Part shown: in pieces, positions 1 to 5,578 of the stretch
How positions within the stretch are numbered: the stretch's first letter is position 1
How the letters are laid out: every line of letters begins with the position of its first letter
DNA from: Candidatus Woesearchaeota archaeon
Lineage (GTDB): Archaea; Nanobdellota; Nanobdellia; Woesearchaeales; UBA11576
DNA: 5,578 nucleotides
Direction of reading: 5' to 3'
NCBI GenBank assembly: GCA_030591125.1
Contig: JAUVBP010000084.1
Coordinates: 1 to 5,578 of the forward strand
Notes under the pieces: generated by a model
Seen by the model: only the letters and a program-made list of their open reading frames with translations
What the model was told of the DNA's origin: nothing
Database searches by the model: none
Translations under genes and position numbers: made by a program

Positions 1-47
1 CATCTGGGACATGCCCTGATGGTGAGAAGTGTTGCGTCGGCGTATGA
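1..47 (+). CDS. C-terminal end of a Cys-rich small protein (5' end outside window)
   Basis: Only the last 14 codons are visible, in the frame starting at base 3: S-G-T-C-P-D-G-E-K-C-C-V-G-V followed by TGA at 45-47. The ending C-x5-C-C-V plus two residues matches the endings of the next four genes (CCVPIG, CCVESPV, CCFM, CCVGAEMPE), so this is most likely another member of the same array. The stop codon overlaps the next gene's ATG as ATGA (44-47), a usual sign of translational coupling. The N-terminal part, including any membrane stalk, lies outside the window and is not seen. Confidence 0.75.
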   Translation, partial: SGTCPDGEKCCVGV

Positions 48-334
48 AGCTGATCCAAATGTTTTCTTTCTTTTCTTCTAGAAAGGCTCAAGGGATGAGC
101 ATCAAAGTCATTATCGTTGCAGTGTTAGCACTAATAGTGATGATAGTCCTCATAATGATAATGACAGGTAAGACAAAGATTTTCAGTAAGGTTTCAGTCA
201 GCTGTGAACAAAAGGGAATGGGTGCGCATTGTATAGCGGAAGGAGGGTCTTGTGAAGGCCCGATACATAAGTTAGGGACGGATTGCAAAAGCCAGAATGA
301 TCATACTCCCTGGTGCTGTGTACCGATAGGCTGA
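44..334 (+). CDS. Small pilin-like membrane protein with six-cysteine head (array member 1)
   Basis: A 96-residue protein of unknown function. Residues 1-15 form a short N-region ending in S-S-R-K-A, residues 20-41 are a very hydrophobic helix, and residues 53-96 are a small head. The R-K-A|Q context fits an archaeal class III (prepilin) signal, with cleavage after Ala15 and Gln at +1; an uncleaved signal anchor is the alternative. The head should face outside. Its cysteines (54, 63, 70, 81, 91, 92) are spaced C-x8-C-x6-C-x10-C-x9-CC, suggesting three disulfides. ATG 44 was chosen because it overlaps the previous stop as ATGA. A GTG at 29 and an ATG at 59 are in frame; ATG 59 would give a 10-residue N-region. 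The stalk is nearly identical to that of the gene at 622-915. No family was recognised. Confidence 0.85.
   Translation: MKLIQMFSFFSSRKAQGMSIKVIIVAVLALIVMIVLIMIMTGKTKIFSKVSVSCEQKGMGAHCIAEGGSCEGPIHKLGTDCKSQNDHTPWCCVPIG
62..79 (+). other. 18-nt pyrimidine tract with T4-T3-T4 runs at the start of array member 1
   Basis: This stretch is all C and T on the coding strand and encodes F-S-F-F-S-S just before the R-K-A signal motif. In archaea, T-rich coding-strand tracts can act as intrinsic terminators, so it could reduce transcription from the upstream gene into the array. It may equally be a simple result of Phe/Ser codons. Confidence 0.25.
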
Positions 335-339
335 GATCT

Positions 340-344
340 GGAGG
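340..344 (+). promoter_or_regulatory. Strong Shine-Dalgarno GGAGG deciding the start at 352
   Basis: GGAGG lies 7 nt before ATG 352, in the 17-nt gap after the stop of array member 1. It fixes ATG 352 as the start rather than the in-frame TTG at 313, which would run back into the previous gene. Confidence 0.85.
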
Positions 345-351
345 AAGTATC

Positions 352-609
352 ATGATAAAATCAAAAAAAGGAATGGAAACATTACAAGTTGTAGTGGCTG
401 CAGCAATACTCATCGCAATACTCCTTATCGGGTTCTATTTCCTGAATAAAGGTGCAAAGGCTGCAAGCGGAGCGACAGAATGCGTGAATGAATGCTCTGC
501 CAAATACTCAGACAATAAATGCCAGGATGAGGATTATCCTATAAAATCATATCAGTCATGCGAAGTAGATGACAAGAAAGGACGCTGTTGCGTTGAATCC
601 CCTGTATAG
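352..609 (+). CDS. Small pilin-like membrane protein with six-cysteine head (array member 2)
   Basis: An 85-residue protein of unknown function. The N-region is only seven residues and ends in S-K-K-G, followed by Met8-Glu9 and a hydrophobic helix at about 12-31. A short Ala/Gly/Lys linker leads to a head with cysteines 44, 48, 57, 70, 79 and 80, spaced C-x3-C-x8-C-x12-C-x8-CC. The last four positions follow the same plan as its neighbours, while the first pair is shifted. The head is strongly charged, with many Asp, Glu and Lys. The start is set by GGAGG 7 nt upstream. It lies 17 nt after array member 1 and 12 nt before array member 3, so the three are almost certainly one transcript. Its helix differs in sequence from those of members 1 and 3, so it is not a recent copy of them. 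Confidence 0.87.
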   Translation: MIKSKKGMETLQVVVAAAILIAILLIGFYFLNKGAKAASGATECVNECSAKYSDNKCQDEDYPIKSYQSCEVDDKKGRCCVESPV

Positions 610-614
610 GAGGT
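609..614 (+). promoter_or_regulatory. Shine-Dalgarno GGAGGT overlapping the upstream stop; sets the start at 622
   Basis: GGAGGT shares its first G with the TAG stop (607-609) of array member 2. It is 7 nt from ATG 622 but only 1 nt from the in-frame ATG 616, so 622 is the likely start. The overlap suggests re-initiation by ribosomes finishing the previous gene. Confidence 0.8.
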
Positions 615-621
615 CATGATC

Positions 622-915
622 ATGGAAAATAAACCAGTGAATAAGAAAGCACAAGGGATGAGCATAAAAGTAGTGATCATAGCAGTCCTTGCATTGATAG
701 TGATGATAGTCCTCGTGATGATATTCACAGGGAAGATCAAGGTATTCAGCAGCGGAGCATCGGACACTTCTGATCAATTCACCGGCAACAAATGTGAGTT
801 GCCTGGAACGAACAATGAGTGTATGTCGTATGCAGATGATTGCGATGGCTCGTACACCTCTCGAACTTACGATGATTGTGAAGCTAAGGGGTATGACGGC
901 TGTTGTTTCATGTGA
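622..915 (+). CDS. Small pilin-like membrane protein with six-cysteine head (array member 3, paralogue of member 1)
   Basis: A 97-residue protein. Its N-region ends in N-K-K-A|Q (residues 7-11), followed by the helix at about 15-36 and an exported head. The segment from K-A-Q-G-M-S-I-K through the end of the helix differs from array member 1 at only a few positions. The heads share little beyond cysteine placement: Cys 58, 67, 74, 86, 94 and 95, spaced C-x8-C-x6-C-x11-C-x7-CC, against x8, x6, x10, x9 in member 1. The head is acidic and rich in Tyr, with no proline after the first loop, and ends two residues after the Cys pair. Function is unknown. Possible roles are a minor pilin, a surface adhesin head or a small exported peptide; nothing in the sequence separates these. 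Confidence 0.87.
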   Translation: MENKPVNKKAQGMSIKVVIIAVLALIVMIVLVMIFTGKIKVFSSGASDTSDQFTGNKCELPGTNNECMSYADDCDGSYTSRTYDDCEAKGYDGCCFM

Positions 916-969
916 TTGACACAAGCCAGGTCTGACCCAAATCATACTATTATCAACTGAGTGTCGCAA

Positions 970-1407
970 ATGTCCTCTAAGAAAGCCCAGATGAATAAAC
1001 CCATGGGAGTAGTCGTAGGGATAGTAATACTTCTTGCATTAGCAATAGTTGTGTACCTGGCATTCATCAAGCCTTCAGGAAAAACCGCAGGAGACCTTTT
1101 CGGCAGCATGGGGTCATGCGCAGATCCCCTGGTCGGCGAGGATGGTGTCTGCAGTTGTGTGTTTGAGGGAGGAATCTGCCCAGGGACTTCTGAAGGCCAG
1201 CTCAATAGGAACTGTCCAGCAAAGGCATGTGACCCTACTGATGGTGAAGCGTTTGCCAAGCAATCAATAAAATCACAGCAGGAGTTCGATGAGAGAGTGA
1301 AGAAGATTGAAAAAGATCTCAAGAGCAAGCTCGGGCCGGACCAGAAGCGCATGCTTGAACCTGACCATTTTGGACTTTGTTGTGTCGGGGCAGAGATGCC
1401 TGAGTGA
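970..1407 (+). CDS. Pilin-like membrane protein with enlarged eight-cysteine head (array member 4)
   Basis: A 145-residue protein. It begins M-S-S-K-K-A-Q, a prepilin-like motif with Gln at +1, followed by a helix at about 13-33. The head has cysteines 50, 61, 63, 70, 82, 87, 137 and 138. The stretch C-V-F-E-G-G-I-C plus an 11-residue loop to the next Cys aligns with C-I-A-E-G-G-S-C plus a 10-residue loop in array member 1, so the domains are probably related. A 49-residue, highly charged Lys/Glu/Asp/Gln segment, probably helical, sits between Cys87 and the final Cys pair and has no counterpart in the other members. No Shine-Dalgarno is visible. ATG 970 is preferred; GTG 961 (three residues longer) is directly preceded by an in-frame TGA. 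The 54-nt gap before it is the largest in the array and could hold a weak promoter. Confidence 0.85.
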   Translation: MSSKKAQMNKPMGVVVGIVILLALAIVVYLAFIKPSGKTAGDLFGSMGSCADPLVGEDGVCSCVFEGGICPGTSEGQLNRNCPAKACDPTDGEAFAKQSIKSQQEFDERVKKIEKDLKSKLGPDQKRMLEPDHFGLCCVGAEMPE

Positions 1408-2375
1408 AAATGATACACAAAATTTTTCAGAAATTCTGGTCTCAAAAACTCGCGGATTCTAAGGAGAGTAAAGCTAATGTATCTACGTCTAAGATGGTCT
1501 CCAGCAGTGAGGTATTGTTCAGTTCTAAGAAAGGCATAGTGGGCATGAGCCTTCAACAGACCATAGGGCTTATCCTTGCCATCATGTTCATCATATTGTC
1601 TGTCGTAGTGATAATGGGTCTCATCAATGTCTTCACTGCAGGCCCTGATGAAGGGAGCACTGCCCGCTTCAATGAGATATTTGATGCTGTCGAGCTGATG
1701 CTCAGCGACGCAAATACCAATCTGAGTGAATCCTGTAAGATAAAGAACATGTACATCCATCCTGGTTTTGCCATCGTAGGTTTCAACAAGAAAGGCATGC
1801 CTAATGAGGCAGGTGAGTATGGCAAGGAGGGTGATGAGAACTATGGGTTTGTGGAAGAGCATTGTCCTCCAGATCCCCCCAATCTACTGCGGAATTATAT
1901 GTGGGATGATATCTATAAACCTAAGAGCTGTCTTGACAGGGGATGCCTCTGTCTCTGTCCTGCGAGTGGAGACGTAGACGGTGATGATTGTAAGGATTCG
2001 GGGGCGCAATGCAGACGCCTCAATGCAGGATTCCAGAATTTCATAATGACAAACCCTGAGAAGAACAACATGAAGATAGATCTTGTGATATACGGTGAGT
2101 CTTGTTTGGGTTCAAATTTAAATGTCATACCGGGTTATGTCATCAAACTACACACAAAGACCATGATTGAGGTCAACCCTATACTTGATATAAAAGTATT
2201 TCAGAAGGATTATGCAGGCATCCTTGAATGCAAAGATCTGATCACGAAGCTCAGGAAGCCAGCAGTTGCAGTACCTAAGCCTGCAGACAACAAGCCAAAA
2301 CCTGAAGAGGATACATTAAACAAAGCTGTAAAAGAGCATGGTGGCATCACACCAGGCACTCTCACACCCCAATAA
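1404..2375 (+). CDS. Single-pass membrane protein with ten-cysteine ectodomain
   Basis: A protein of about 323 residues. A long Lys/Ser-rich N-region of about 40 residues ends in S-S-K-K-G (40-44), then a helix spans about 53-77. The ectodomain has ten cysteines (111, 154, 176, 181, 183, 185, 196, 203, 234, 276). Cys181-Leu-Cys-Leu-Cys185 is followed by an acidic loop D-V-D-G-D-D-C (190-196) that could bind a metal ion such as calcium. The tail from about 284 is rich in Lys, Pro and Glu and looks disordered. GTG 1404 overlaps the previous stop as GTGA. ATG 1410 is two codons later, and ATG 1494 would give an N-region of ordinary length; the true start is uncertain. It shares the stalk design of the array, so it may be a larger partner. 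The pattern feels familiar from DPANN membrane proteins, but I cannot name a family. Confidence 0.85.
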   Translation: MKMIHKIFQKFWSQKLADSKESKANVSTSKMVSSSEVLFSSKKGIVGMSLQQTIGLILAIMFIILSVVVIMGLINVFTAGPDEGSTARFNEIFDAVELMLSDANTNLSESCKIKNMYIHPGFAIVGFNKKGMPNEAGEYGKEGDENYGFVEEHCPPDPPNLLRNYMWDDIYKPKSCLDRGCLCLCPASGDVDGDDCKDSGAQCRRLNAGFQNFIMTNPEKNNMKIDLVIYGESCLGSNLNVIPGYVIKLHTKTMIEVNPILDIKVFQKDYAGILECKDLITKLRKPAVAVPKPADNKPKPEEDTLNKAVKEHGGITPGTLTPQ

Positions 2376-2428: not shown

Positions 2429-3529
2429 ATGGGTTTTGTTTCAAAAAGAGGTAGATTAGTCAGCAGTAGGTCCGTCCCTTTTAGAGGAAAGAAGGGAGAC
2501 GTAATGAATGAATTCTATTTTATCCTATTCCAGCTGATGCTTGTCCTGCTTGTGCTTGTGGCACTCATACAATACGTCAACCTCACAGCATCAGGATTGA
2601 AGTTCGAGAAAAGATTCACATCTATGGACCTGGCCCTTCTTGCAACTACAGTGCAGTATGTGCCAGGGACATTGAAACACATCTATACGCCCATGGCGTT
2701 TGAAGCATTGATCGACCTTGAGCACATAAACAATACAGTATACATAAATCAGAAAGATAGCGATCTCCCTTCAATAGTGTTCTGGTTCCTCTCAGACATA
2801 AACCGGGACCCTATCGATGATCGCCCAATAAGACTGACAGGAACAAGAGCGAGTGAGGGAGGCATATTCAGTGATGGTGAGATAACGCCACCATACATAA
2901 CATATTACCGCACTGGACGTAAAATAGCATTTGACCATACAGAGATAAGCCCGTTCCATAAGAACTGTCCTGTGTTCAACACTTCTGCAGACCTGAACTC
3001 AAAGACGATCACGATATCCAAAGTGTTCAGTGACCCAAAGGATGAACGCAATGTTTCACATCCTGTGAACAAGATCGCTCAGCATATAGCGGCAAGACAT
3101 CGGAATCTGTTCAAGATCACCAAGAGCCCTGATAAATCTGAATCTGACCTCATAATATATGTGGGAGACTCAGGAGAGAGCAGGGGGCCTGGAAGCCTTG
3201 TCATGTTCATACCTATAGACGAAAATACCCTGCTGTCACGTAAGTTGGCATGTATCCTGATCAATGACCTGCTCACTGATGAGAGCTATATATTATTTTC
3301 ACAGATAATGCCGATATACACAGAACATCTTGATAAGGAAAGCCCTCTCAATGTATTGAAGACAAAAGCAGGCCAAGCGACAGTCTTCTGGGATATATCA
3401 GGATTCACTGCTGAAGAGTTTGATTATACAATCACAGCAGATGCTTTTGCTACTGCAATCCTCAGGTATCATGGTGCTGAGAAGCTGAATATCAGATCTG
3501 AAAAGACCATGAGTACAGAGGCAGAGTAA
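2429..3529 (+). CDS. Single-pass membrane protein; possible degenerate amidase-like ectodomain
   Basis: A 366-residue protein. A basic N-region ends in G-K-K-G (20-23), followed by Asp24 and Glu28 (+1 and +5 of a prepilin-type site) and a helix at about 29-50. Residues 66-190 form an uncharacterised alpha/beta region. Residues 191-349 follow the segment order of Amidase_3 zinc amidases: a beta strand T-I-T-I-S, an E-R-N-V-S..N-K-I-A helix start, D-L-I-I-Y-V-G, an S-R-K-L-A helix, A-T-V-F-W-D-I-S-G-F, and a final helix A-F-A-T-A-I-L-R-Y-H-G. The His of the PGHGG loop and the His of the S-I-H-A-N strand are absent, and Asp322 sits where a Glu is usual, so catalysis is unlikely. This fold match is inference from memory. 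The leaderless promoter supports ATG 2429. It has only two cysteines, unlike the array. Confidence 0.88.
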   Translation: MGFVSKRGRLVSSRSVPFRGKKGDVMNEFYFILFQLMLVLLVLVALIQYVNLTASGLKFEKRFTSMDLALLATTVQYVPGTLKHIYTPMAFEALIDLEHINNTVYINQKDSDLPSIVFWFLSDINRDPIDDRPIRLTGTRASEGGIFSDGEITPPYITYYRTGRKIAFDHTEISPFHKNCPVFNTSADLNSKTITISKVFSDPKDERNVSHPVNKIAQHIAARHRNLFKITKSPDKSESDLIIYVGDSGESRGPGSLVMFIPIDENTLLSRKLACILINDLLTDESYILFSQIMPIYTEHLDKESPLNVLKTKAGQATVFWDISGFTAEEFDYTITADAFATAILRYHGAEKLNIRSEKTMSTEAE

Positions 3530-3551: not shown

Positions 3552-4106
3552 ATGAGACATGTGATGATGAGCTACAATAAAGGAATGAGCAGGAAAGGGA
3601 TACTTTCTTTTAATTTCATGTCCATGATACCAAGGATACTATTCTTGGTCATAATGCTCACAGTGGTCATCGTACTGGTTGAGCTCTACATGAACCAGAA
3701 GTTCAATACTGAGGACCTGCGTGCAGAGATAATCCTGAATGGATTCATATATGCCACGGGAGGAATAAACTATTATGATGCTGTGACTGGCCGCACATAC
3801 CCTGAGATAATAGACCTGGTGCAGATGAATGCTACAGAACTTGAGGATTCATTCTTCTTCAAAGACAATAATGTGATTGCAGCAAAGATCTATGTATCAC
3901 ACCTTCCCAATGATGCAACTTCCCCTCTGAAAGAGTTATACTACAACAAGGAGTGGTACGACAGCTGGGAACCTATTGTGAGGCTCAAGATAGGTGGTAT
4001 AGGGGGTGTTGCAGAGTACAAGAGGACCCTTCCGACCATATACAGGAAAGAGGGCGGGACGTTCAAGTCAGGATATGTTACATATCAGGTGGTGCAGCCA
4101 AAATGA
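3552..4106 (+). CDS. Single-pass membrane protein of unknown function, cysteine-free
   Basis: A 184-residue protein, 22 nt after the previous gene and probably co-transcribed with it. The N-region ends in S-R-K-G (13-16), followed by a helix at about 25-46. The ectodomain (47-184) has no cysteine. It contains a G-R-T-Y-P-E-I-I-D segment (80-88), an N-N-V-I-A-A-K-I-Y strand (106-114), W-E-P-I-V-R-L-K-I-G-G-I-G-G (139-152), and a beta-rich end V-T-Y-Q-V-V-Q-P-K. The alternation suggests a mainly beta domain. ATG 3552 is the first start; ATGs at 3564, 3567 and 3585 are also in frame, and ATG 3585 would leave M-S-R-K-G at the very N-terminus. No clear Shine-Dalgarno distinguishes them. The pattern resembles a small conserved archaeal membrane family I cannot name. 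Confidence 0.85.
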   Translation: MRHVMMSYNKGMSRKGILSFNFMSMIPRILFLVIMLTVVIVLVELYMNQKFNTEDLRAEIILNGFIYATGGINYYDAVTGRTYPEIIDLVQMNATELEDSFFFKDNNVIAAKIYVSHLPNDATSPLKELYYNKEWYDSWEPIVRLKIGGIGGVAEYKRTLPTIYRKEGGTFKSGYVTYQVVQPK

Positions 4107-4122
4107 AATCAGATGACAACAA

Positions 4123-4158
4123 ATCATATTTATCAGCATATTTACTATCATATTTACC
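4123..4158 (+). repeat. 12-nt tandem repeat, three copies
   Basis: Three 12-nt units, ATCATATTTATC, AGCATATTTACT and ATCATATTTACC, follow each other without gaps, then a partial CATATT. The core CATATTTA is kept in all three. It starts 16 nt after the stop of the preceding gene. It could be binding sites on one face of the helix or simple AT-rich slippage. Confidence 0.6.
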
Positions 4159-4180
4159 CATATTGAAACAAAACCCAGGA

Positions 4181-4213
4181 GTGCCGGCACAGGACAATAT
4201 CCTGTGCTGGCAT
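4181..4213. repeat. Inverted repeat (14-bp stem, 5-nt loop)
   Basis: TGCCGGCACAGGA (4182-4194) pairs with TCCTGTGCTGGCA (4200-4212) around the loop CAATA, with one G-U pair and one further outer G-U pair (4181/4213). The stem is GC-rich inside an AT-rich gap, so it should form a stable RNA hairpin. No T-run follows it directly. Confidence 0.8.
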
Positions 4214-4259
4214 ATACTAAAAGCAGGAAATAATGAACTTTATTTCCTGCTTTTGTATA
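4213..4259. repeat. Long inverted repeat (15-bp perfect stem, extended to 20 bp)
   Basis: AAAAGCAGGAAATAA (4219-4233) is perfectly complementary to 4240-4254, with a 6-nt loop TGAACT. TATAC (4213-4217) and GTATA (4255-4259) extend the stem by five pairs past one bulged T. It directly follows the preceding hairpin and shares its last bases with the palindrome at 4248-4269, so the two cannot both fold. Confidence 0.8.
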
Positions 4260-4269
4260 TACAAAAGCA
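4248..4269. repeat. Perfect 22-bp palindrome
   Basis: TGCTTTTGTATATACAAAAGCA equals its own reverse complement. As DNA it could be an operator for a dimeric regulator; as RNA it would form a hairpin that competes with the long stem at 4213-4259, because both use 4248-4259. Confidence 0.8.
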
Positions 4270-4298
4270 ATTGATCAGTTCGAAAATTAATTGTTTTT
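4268..4298 (+). terminator. Possible terminator: weak hairpin followed by T5
   Basis: CAATTGAT (4268-4275) can pair with ATTAATTG (4286-4293) with one G-U pair, and TTTTT follows at 4294-4298. Archaeal transcription ends mainly at T-runs, so this is a reasonable end for the transcript carrying the two genes before it. The stem is AT-only apart from the closing pair and the wobble. Confidence 0.45.
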
Positions 4299-4306
4299 AG
4301 TATATT
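4295..4306 (+). promoter_or_regulatory. Weak TATA-like element upstream of the gene at 4356
   Basis: TTTTAGTATATT lies about 55 nt before ATG 4356, which would give a transcript start near 4327 and a leader of about 30 nt. GTATATAC inside the palindrome (4255-4262) is an alternative. Neither is as good as the element before 2429, and no Shine-Dalgarno is visible before 4356. Confidence 0.3.
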
Positions 4307-4355
4307 CCTTTTCATAGGATACCAACATAAGATGTAAACGTAGATTGTCAATACC

Positions 4356-5090
4356 ATGGACATCAGAAAAAACCGGAAGAACAGAAAGATGCGACGGATG
4401 AACAAGAAGGCATTCATAAGCGATTCGATAGTAGACATATGGGCAATAATCCTCTTCGCACTTGTAGTCCTGACATTTGCAATACTGTTCAAATTCGATG
4501 CTGACGCGCGTGAGATGGCAATAAAGGACAGGAAAGACGTGACTTATGGAAATTACTTTGCCCAGGTGTTCCTCAGGAAACCTATGTTGGCAGGTAATGA
4601 GCAGATGACCATGGCAGAGCTCATAGCGTTTTATGATTACAACCAGACACAAGAGAAACAGAAGAGCCTGATCCAAGATGCCAAAGACCTGCATAAATTC
4701 CTGTTCTACGGTGTCAGAAATCCTCTGTGGGATGCCCTTGAGCCAACTATAGACCAGTTCACAGAATGGAGCTTTGATGAAGACCGTTGTTGGGTTTTCT
4801 CTATAAAAGGGAATGGCTTTGAGTATGCAAAGTTCGGAGATTGCCCTGCATTGTCTACTGCATTCTCGATAGCCCTTGCGCTGGAACAGTACCAAGTACC
4901 TAAAGAAACATTCGTCACCTATATAGCCTCGGTCGATCCGAGACAGAAACCTATAGAGATCTACTCAATCTATGATCTCCAAAGGCTTGTAGAACTCTAT
5001 GCTCCCGATTCATATACTGATATGTCTGATTGGGAGAAGACACTTGAAACGTACTTGTGTGTGACATTTCCCCGTATCCCCCTATGTTAA
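4356..5090 (+). CDS. Single-pass membrane protein of unknown function
   Basis: A 244-residue protein. The N-region is very basic, with about 11 Arg/Lys in the first 18 residues, and ends in N-K-K-A (16-19). Phe20 would be +1 of a prepilin-type site, as in bacterial type IV pilins. The helix spans about 24-46. The ectodomain contains V-F-L-R-K-P-M (71-77), a Met-rich T-M-A-E-L-I segment (85-90) and a W-V-F-S-I strand (146-150). It has four cysteines (145, 163, 235, 244), the last being the final residue. ATG 4356 was chosen as the first start; ATGs at 4389 and 4398 would shorten the basic N-region to 8 or 5 residues and are plausible. It follows a 249-nt regulatory-looking gap, so it probably begins a new transcript. 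I recognise no family. Confidence 0.86.
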   Translation: MDIRKNRKNRKMRRMNKKAFISDSIVDIWAIILFALVVLTFAILFKFDADAREMAIKDRKDVTYGNYFAQVFLRKPMLAGNEQMTMAELIAFYDYNQTQEKQKSLIQDAKDLHKFLFYGVRNPLWDALEPTIDQFTEWSFDEDRCWVFSIKGNGFEYAKFGDCPALSTAFSIALALEQYQVPKETFVTYIASVDPRQKPIEIYSIYDLQRLVELYAPDSYTDMSDWEKTLETYLCVTFPRIPLC

Positions 5091-5107: not shown

Positions 5108-5578
5108 ATGAGACGCGGATTATTCCACAAGAAGAGCAAGAAGGCAATGGTCTTCAACATCATGATAGTCTTATTTACGATAATGATACTCACTTATGCA
5201 TACATCCGGCTCACAGAAAAGATGGACAGGGTCGCGTTGGAGATAGGCGAGAACCAGATGGCCATCATAACGGACGTACAGGAAGGAGAGAAGGCATTGA
5301 TATTCCTTGACTTTGCTGCCAAGCTGGCCTTGTATCAGGCAGCATATGATCTCCAATCATCCGGCGGTTTTTCAGGCACATCGTCCTGCGGGACATATTA
5401 TGATTTCAACATGTGGAATGACAATTCAGAGACTGATTGTTCGATAAATGAGAGCACTGCAAGAGATGCATTGCAGATGCTGTTCTCATCAAGCCTCAAA
5501 TCCCGGGTCGCTGCGTATCCTACTGCAGATTTCATAGAGAGCACATCTGCAGCAACACTCGCTCGCGGTCAGGCTGTC
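5108..5578 (+). CDS. Single-pass membrane protein, N-terminal 157 codons (3' end outside window)
   Basis: An open frame runs from ATG 5108 to the last base with no stop. It lies 17 nt after the previous gene, so probably in the same transcript. The N-region ends in K-S-K-K-A (9-13), followed by a helix at about 14-34. Residues 37-84 look helical (I-G-E-N-Q, Q-E-G-E-K-A-L-I-F-L-D, A-A-K-L-A-L-Y-Q-A-A-Y-D-L) and lead into S-S-G-G-F and a C-G-T-Y-Y-D-F-N-M-W region. Cys94 and Cys111 flank it and may form a disulfide. I recognise no named family, although the helix followed by C-G-x-Y recalls long DPANN membrane proteins. No Shine-Dalgarno is visible. The missing C-terminus may hold the functional domain. 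Confidence 0.85.
   Translation, partial: MRRGLFHKKSKKAMVFNIMIVLFTIMILTYAYIRLTEKMDRVALEIGENQMAIITDVQEGEKALIFLDFAAKLALYQAAYDLQSSGGFSGTSSCGTYYDFNMWNDNSETDCSINESTARDALQMLFSSSLKSRVAAYPTADFIESTSAATLARGQAV

Follow-up and report, generated by a model that had tools for sequence, protein, structure and literature searches.

Pilin-like gene cluster of Woesearchaeota with putative bacterial-wall-degrading cargo on two of its subunits

The stretch of DNA analyzed here (the window, 5,578 nucleotides) is the entire contig C86 of a Candidatus Woesearchaeota archaeon, whose genome assembly of 1.31 Mb in 226 contigs is 67% complete. It harbors a tandem series of pilin-like genes, which we compared with those of related archaea. 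From sequence comparison, we give an even chance to the reading that these genes belong to a conserved woesearchaeal pilin-like set, which would display bacterial-wall-degrading enzymes on two of its subunits, G and J. Gene places are designated slots A to J; L, G and C with a number denote loci, genomes (G000 is the own genome) and contigs, and P0150 is a protein. All ten slots lie on the + strand. Lengths are given in amino acids (aa), and ORF stands for open reading frame.

1..47, + strand: slot A tail, Cys-rich short gene whose 5′ part lies beyond the contig edge; in frame +3 (first codon at base 3) it reads SGTCPDGEKCCVGV up to the stop at 45-47
44..334, + strand: slot B, 96 aa; class-III-like signal SSRKA^QGMS, helix and six-Cys head; its ATG overlaps the slot A stop as ATGA
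352..609, + strand: slot C, 85 aa; KSKKG^METL, helix and six-Cys head; slot assigned by gene order
616..915, + strand: slot D, 99 aa; NKKA^QGMS, helix and six-Cys head with a PGTNNEC motif
970..1407, + strand: slot E, 145 aa; SKKA^QMNK, helix and eight-Cys head
1410..2375, + strand: slot F, 321 aa (ORF from GTG at 1404); SKKG^IVGMSLQQ, helix and 10 Cys
2429..3529, + strand: slot G, 366 aa, pilin-like carrier, often longer in relatives
3552..4106, + strand: slot H, 184 aa, pilin-like
4181..4305, no strand: three strong, adjacent hairpins in the H-I gap, a possible terminator or processing region
4356..5090, + strand: slot I, 244 aa, pilin-like, NKKA^FISD
5108..5578, + strand: slot J, first 157 aa of a cargo carrier, SKKA^MVFN; runs off the contig end

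Genes A to H are tightly packed, with gaps of -4 to 54 bases, and the hairpins occupy the 249-base gap between H and I. The fold of positions 4107-4355 has a z-score of -8.1, and an Rfam search of the region gave no match; given these hairpins, the genes may be transcribed as two units, A to H and I to J. A 306-aa minus-strand ORF (942-1862), which overlaps E and part of F, was taken as chance.

The proteins of slots B to J have in common a basic N-region, a [KR][AG] site and one N-terminal hydrophobic helix. A strict test for such a pilin-like N-terminus was passed by all nine genes (B to J) as against 13 of 195 ORFs from 59 control loci. The initial annotation, made from the letters of the window, had described five Cys-Cys-ended genes within 1..1407, and these are indeed present, with the pair 3 (slot A tail), 4, 5, 2 and 7 residues ahead of the stop. 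The common plan that it assigned to the four complete genes likewise holds: the helix is preceded by RKA, KKG, KKA and KKA and followed by 6, 6, 6 and 8 cysteines in B, C, D and E. When the last 60 residues of these four proteins were shuffled, a Cys-Cys pair within the last 9 residues of all four arose in 0 of 20,000 trials of this post hoc test, which was devised once the pattern had been seen. The pattern does not end at position 1407, since all genes from B to J are pilin-like.

No gene of the window matched a Pfam family over the cut-off, and none of the ten cluster proteins of a relative (L048) did so in an NCBIfam scan; these searches thus gave no match to a curated pilin family, and the heads remain without a named one, as had been predicted. 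For slot D, 603 homologs were found, with no Pfam domain among the 120 matches listed. The AlphaFold model of this protein (74 sequences; mean predicted local distance difference test score 81, and about 89 for residues 61-99) has two helices, the first one long, and a small head; of the short strands in this head, the final one is located at the Cys-Cys pair. A fold search of the model against the PDB gave no match, which says nothing for a new or different fold. Taken together, the sequences support predicted export, a pilin-like plan and Cys-rich heads outside the named families.

The genes at 1..1407 had been interpreted as an array of constant stalks with freely varying heads. To compare slots, 39 short proteins from nine loci in five genera of the own family were assigned to A-E by hand from gene order; the set is without slot E of L048 and L049 and slots A and E of L041, and no slot C was seen in L051. 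In 239 of 272 comparisons, a head found its best match in another genome at its own slot (A, 42/42; B, 58/72; C, 37/56; D, 72/72; E, 30/30), and the corresponding figure for stalks was 151 of 272. Mean head identity was 38% within a slot, 27% between paralogs in one genome and 26% between different slots across genomes. The window's slot C fits most poorly, another slot scoring higher in three of the seven genomes that have slot C; this was the case in 2/8 genomes for B, 0/8 for D and 0/5 for E.

Stalks are more constant than heads in A, B and D (mean same-slot identity of 71, 53 and 68% vs 47, 34 and 42%) but not in C (33 vs 34%) or E (32 vs 34%), so that the constant stalk holds for only some of the slots. 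The better conserved stalks of A, B and D would be expected if the array had expanded recently, with its heads diversifying under selection for variability. This scenario is nevertheless highly improbable: the heads are slot-specific orthologs in an order kept across five genera, which contradicts free variation, and the six cysteines are invariant in B (eight aligned sequences) and in D (nine). Because the gene order is kept and heads best match the same slot, the comparison argues for each Cys-Cys-ended gene being a dedicated, long-kept subunit of one machine. In line with the initial annotation, relatives carry the same array rather than single conserved copies, and the upstream gene has a stalk: slot A, of which the window holds only the tail, shows a KKAQG/RKAQG stalk and a CCVGV end in L043 and L044. 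The idea of a constant carrier with a variable part fails at 1..1407 and finds its place at slots G and J, where it applies across species.

The same set of genes recurs in other Woesearchaeota. A first scan of genome contigs with slot G found no relative; among 59 genomes, the own genome and 58 relatives, slot G then had a match in 24 and slot I in 18, the own genome counted in both. The neighborhoods of G and I contain the same genes in largely the same order, and the place of slot F is also occupied in relatives. The further members anticipated 5′ of the array exist: relatives have more pilin-like genes there, the first being slot 1 (QIFIYI) and slot 2 (FNWIF...CPLIY). In the own genome, slots 1 and 2 close contig C10, where they follow two giant Cys-rich proteins (L191:2-11826), one of 2472 aa that is open where the contig begins and one of 1468 aa, and several relatives likewise have long proteins at the place before slot 1.

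A slot 2 marker profile matched 239 of the 287 genomes of the order, including 147 of 171 high-quality genomes. Of 130 candidate stretches from a public collection, 97 could be confirmed; 80 were kept, 78 of which are recorded as Woesearchaeota, Nanoarchaeota or Nanoarchaeia, or as unnamed archaea. Marker contigs filed under Methanosarcinales and Aminicenantes (L122, L179) are probably mis-binned woesearchaeal DNA. In 38 different clusters with slot 2 and J in one locus, we counted 8 to 17 pilin-like genes over a span of 7.8 to 18.9 kb. A looser pilin-like test was passed by 476 of the 508 same-strand ORFs from slot 2 to J inclusive (summed by hand over the 38 clusters, one duplicate genome left out) vs 36 of 195 control ORFs. 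This is a real and widespread woesearchaeal cluster of pilin-like genes, for which we found no name in the literature.

The N-terminal part of J (~150 residues) is kept across the order, and what comes after it changes. A search regardless of cargo gave 64 matches representing 57 different proteins; leaving out seven from loci fetched for a hydrolase (L246, L247, L248, L251, L253, L255, L259) and five cut by a contig or locus end (L043, L147, L164, L172 and the window), 45 complete J proteins were counted. Over the Pfam cut-off, 22 of these carry a peptidoglycan hydrolase: M23 in seven, SLT in six, M15/VanY in five, Amidase_2 in two, M74 in one, and Amidase_3 together with M74 in one (L203). 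Outside this count, the cut J of L147 carries SLT, and hydrolase searches found five more J proteins with M23 or SLT. Among 17 close relatives of the window that share the J N-terminus of L041, three carry the muramidase PF11860, one NlpC/P60 and one GDSL, and one is named M15 peptidase (P0150), these six being 51-66% identical. The last, of 852 aa, is 88% identical to all 157 residues of the window J; beyond the shared part, C39_2 scores over the cut-off, and M15_4 and CHAP match more weakly.

Slot G also bears cargo. Pfam scans of seven G proteins revealed a muramidase in L049, Amidase_2 in L044 and both domains in L048. The slot G protein of L046 (12117-14048) contains a lysozyme domain, with an E value of 1.4e-19 to PDB chains named lysozyme (3d3d, 1am7), which we take to be phage lambda lysozyme; the domain was likely acquired from a phage or a bacterium. 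The G protein of L041 appears NlpC/P60-like by eye, but it had no match in Pfam or among PDB sequences. In slot H, used as a control, none of 19 aligned proteins had any Pfam family or extra domain; the search with the slot H protein itself gave 14 matches. Bin contamination as the source of the cargo was rejected, given that the enzyme domains share a reading frame with the archaeal carrier and lie inside the cluster.

Three further observations concern the surroundings of the cargo genes. In a locus of the same genus (L041:13768-18201, on G002:C43), a 1477-aa protein directly after J carries M23, and the cluster cargo may extend past J. Genome G022 has two J genes in tandem (L052:2516-4363, 5064-6632, 7465-8850), and its slot I protein has a C39-type peptidase domain at its end.

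The wall to be cut is likely foreign. Murein synthesis needs four Mur ligases. Mur_ligase_M had no match in 34 of the 59 genomes, one match in 24, which FolC would presumably give, and three in G014. As judged from this gene content, 58 of the 59 genomes cannot make murein by the known route, and the lack of a set of Mur ligases makes a foreign target likely for the hydrolases. G014 also has an unusually strong PF00437 match (E 1.4e-82), and its bin probably contains foreign contigs.

Several observations weigh against a wall-cutting cluster. Of the 45 complete J proteins, 17 have no Pfam family at all, three have sub-threshold matches only (L055, L140, L206) and three carry other hydrolases (a GDSL lipase and two metallophosphatases). 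In the own family, the J forms of L041, L046 and L047 look esterase-like by eye, and 11 of the 17 close relatives of the L041 J N-terminus have no Pfam domain. In P0150, only C39_2 is over the cut-off and the M15 region looks degenerate by eye. Four of the seven scanned G proteins are without Pfam cargo. In the window itself no enzyme is visible, as G is short and without a Pfam family and J is cut off at 5578. Hydrolases are common outside the cluster as well: M23 occurs in 30 of the 59 genomes and SLT in 33, and of 21 further hydrolase places fetched, 15 lay outside J proteins. Two such SLT proteins, L242 (G000:C49) and L243 (G000:C46), are encoded in the own genome, and both are devoid of a pilin-like signal. 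Crude catalytic patterns occur together in three of nine SLT, one of seven M15, none of two Amidase_2 and none of two M74 cargo domains; L253, in which both SLT patterns matched 527 residues apart, was not counted. Since the patterns are rarely met together, some cargo may only bind, or the patterns may be too narrow.

The cargo could belong to an archaeal pilus of the ordinary adhesive kind, rich in minor pilins, in which the enzyme-like domains are wall-binding adhesins or serve feeding on free peptidoglycan instead of breaching living cells. The missing patterns in six of nine SLT and six of seven M15 domains would fit such a pilus, as would the J proteins, about half, without a hydrolase over the cut-off; moreover, Makarova et al. 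(PMC4858521) report pilus loci of archaea in which Cys-rich minor pilins are numerous. On the other hand, both metal-binding patterns are present in 8 of the 12 M23 proteins checked, one J unites two enzyme domains (Amidase_3 and M74, L203), and the occurrence of many unrelated murein-cleaving classes at one slot points to selection for cutting. We consider an adhesion pilus of this kind unlikely.

Genes that could assemble pilin-like subunits are found elsewhere in these genomes. Prepilin peptidase (PF01478) is present in 55 of 59 genomes. An ATPase of ~770 aa with PF00437 is well conserved (seven aligned sequences, 54-71% identity to the first), its profile matching 58 of 59 genomes at >220 bits; the match in the own genome is a piece at a contig end. 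A TadC-like protein of ~740 aa with eight transmembrane (8-TM) segments occurs in 57 of 59 genomes (E <= 2e-40). Its likeness to TadC is weak by Pfam (PF00482 with E 0.016 in one protein, 0.095 in another and none in a third), and it is perhaps two TadC units fused. The TadC-like gene directly follows the ATPase gene in G028 and G018 and comes one gene further in G019, and partial copies of both lie on C196 and C175 of the own genome. Loci with the pair were seen at L236:320-4884, L240:755-6011 and L237:3172-7703. A divergent gene with a coiled-coil look by eye stands beside the ATPase (L240:6112-6597, L235:238-780, L238:7879-8499, L241:6832-7422); it fits the DPANN pilus loci of Hamm et al. 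(PMC11291902), as set out in the accessible part of that paper, and may be their coiled-coil protein. Nine genomes with slot 2 have a single match to the ATPase profile (G006, G018, G021, G027, G028, G033, G035, G043, G048), and PF00437 itself has one match in G006, G027, G028 and G035.

The link between this motor and the cluster also has points on the opposing side. The ATPase and TadC-like genes lie outside the cluster, and their link to it is by co-occurrence only. PF00437 has two to three matches in the other five of the nine single-ATPase genomes; the ATPase occurs without a slot 2 match in nine of the 59 genomes, and G050 has slot 2 but neither the ATPase nor the TadC-like gene. Prepilin peptidase was not found in the own genome, at its 67% completeness. 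A motorless pilin cluster, suggested by G006, G016 and others with no PF00482 and only weak PF00437, was considered and dropped because the conserved ATPase and TadC-like profiles match nearly all of the 59 genomes. We infer that the ATPase/TadC-like motor serves the pilin-like cluster.

A filament need not follow. The proteins might form a static membrane-anchored complex, or a pseudopilus complex like that of the type II secretion system, made of single-helix proteins that secrete enzymes or hold them at the cell's own surface. No cluster gene stands out as a major pilin, and by eye the motor gene is absent from the fetched cluster loci. The J carrier model is mostly helical, and its fold search against the PDB gave no match at E <= 0.001, which is no sign of a new or different fold; a pilin fold of J is putative. 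The class-III-type signals on B to J and the presence of prepilin peptidase, the conserved ATPase and the TadC-like protein in nearly all genomes speak for a filament instead, and we rate the static complex as less probable still than the adhesion pilus.

The most likely product of the cluster is a type IV filament or pseudopilus tip that is armed for use on bacterial walls. In such a device, the subunits would be inserted with their helix in the membrane and cut by prepilin peptidase, and the ATPase and TadC-like pair encoded elsewhere would push them out as a short filament or a pseudopilus. Its shaft or tip scaffold would be built by F, H and I and by the short, presumably disulfide-rich subunits A to E, the Cys-rich heads of the latter providing a robust surface. 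G and J would sit at the exposed end, where large C-terminal domains fit best, and on contact their enzymes would reach the bacterial wall and open it, so that the archaeon could feed, attach or enter. From one species to another, the enzyme class is exchanged on a carrier that is kept, which would be expected of a cargo that follows the wall chemistry of the partner. More tentatively, and with somewhat less than even confidence, we suggest an order-wide dedicated type IV filament whose tip bears exchangeable murein-cutting warheads fitted to the wall of a host or prey, that is, a contact weapon or drill.

Woesearchaeota are widespread and uncultured, with no known means of contacting other cells, and the case for bacterial partners has been built mostly on single murein hydrolase genes. 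If pilin-like subunits do carry these enzymes, there would be a concrete machine with a parts list and a direct test, the class of the cargo may predict the wall type of the partner, and peptidoglycan cutting would join the known jobs of type IV filament tips. The pilus-like device that the cluster likely builds would let these tiny archaea grip or breach bacteria.

Murein-degrading enzymes have been reported from these lineages. For Pacearchaeota and Woesearchaeota, Castelle et al., 2021 describe, in the text available, large proteins of the murein-like transglycosylase type that are extracellular. Lineage and proposed target are the same as for the cluster, and their set probably includes some of the long J proteins. 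They are presented as a large enzyme family, and neither 'pilin' nor 'pili' occurs in the main text. Vigneron et al., 2022 also report murein-like transglycosylase genes in Woesearchaeota, with no word beginning in 'pili' in the accessible main text. Archaeal peptidoglycan hydrolases that kill bacteria, prominent in Nanoarchaeota, are the subject of a 2025 study (PMC12352652, consulted in part), which makes no link to pilins ('pilin' and 'pili' have 0 occurrences in its main text). A survey of the open literature by title and abstract, with subscription papers and preprints mostly outside its scope, led us to recognize no paper on archaeal pilin-borne hydrolases.

As for pili, Hamm et al., 2024 (PMC11291902) describe two DPANN type IV pilus loci with CpaF, TadC and coiled-coil proteins, Woesearchaeota being among the hosts. 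These loci probably include the ATPase and TadC-like pair found here via PF00437; FlaF and PilA are named in locus 1, and the available text mentions no multi-pilin cluster with wall-degrading cargo. In other archaea, class-III signals and, in some loci, many Cys-rich minor pilins are known, as here (Makarova et al., 2016); in the loci of the accessible text the ATPase and TadC are encoded alongside the pilins, unlike in the woesearchaeal cluster. The accessible portion of that paper contains neither 'Woesearch' nor 'DPANN' and names Nanoarchaeota once. We found a peptidoglycan hydrolase cargo in no described archaeal pilus, and the cluster is otherwise of the type IV filament kind.

The nearest functional likeness is the Kil/Tad pilus of Myxococcus xanthus (PMC12075869). 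According to the available text, this type IV filament, used in contact-dependent killing, ends in complexes of minor pilins whose C-terminal domains are modular, and the tips are variable and exchangeable. The word 'peptidoglycan' is absent from the main text of that paper, and the resemblance is one of function only. Unlike Kil/Tad, the woesearchaeal cluster is archaeal, comprises about a dozen different pilin-like subunits, and its modular domains belong to peptidoglycan hydrolase families.

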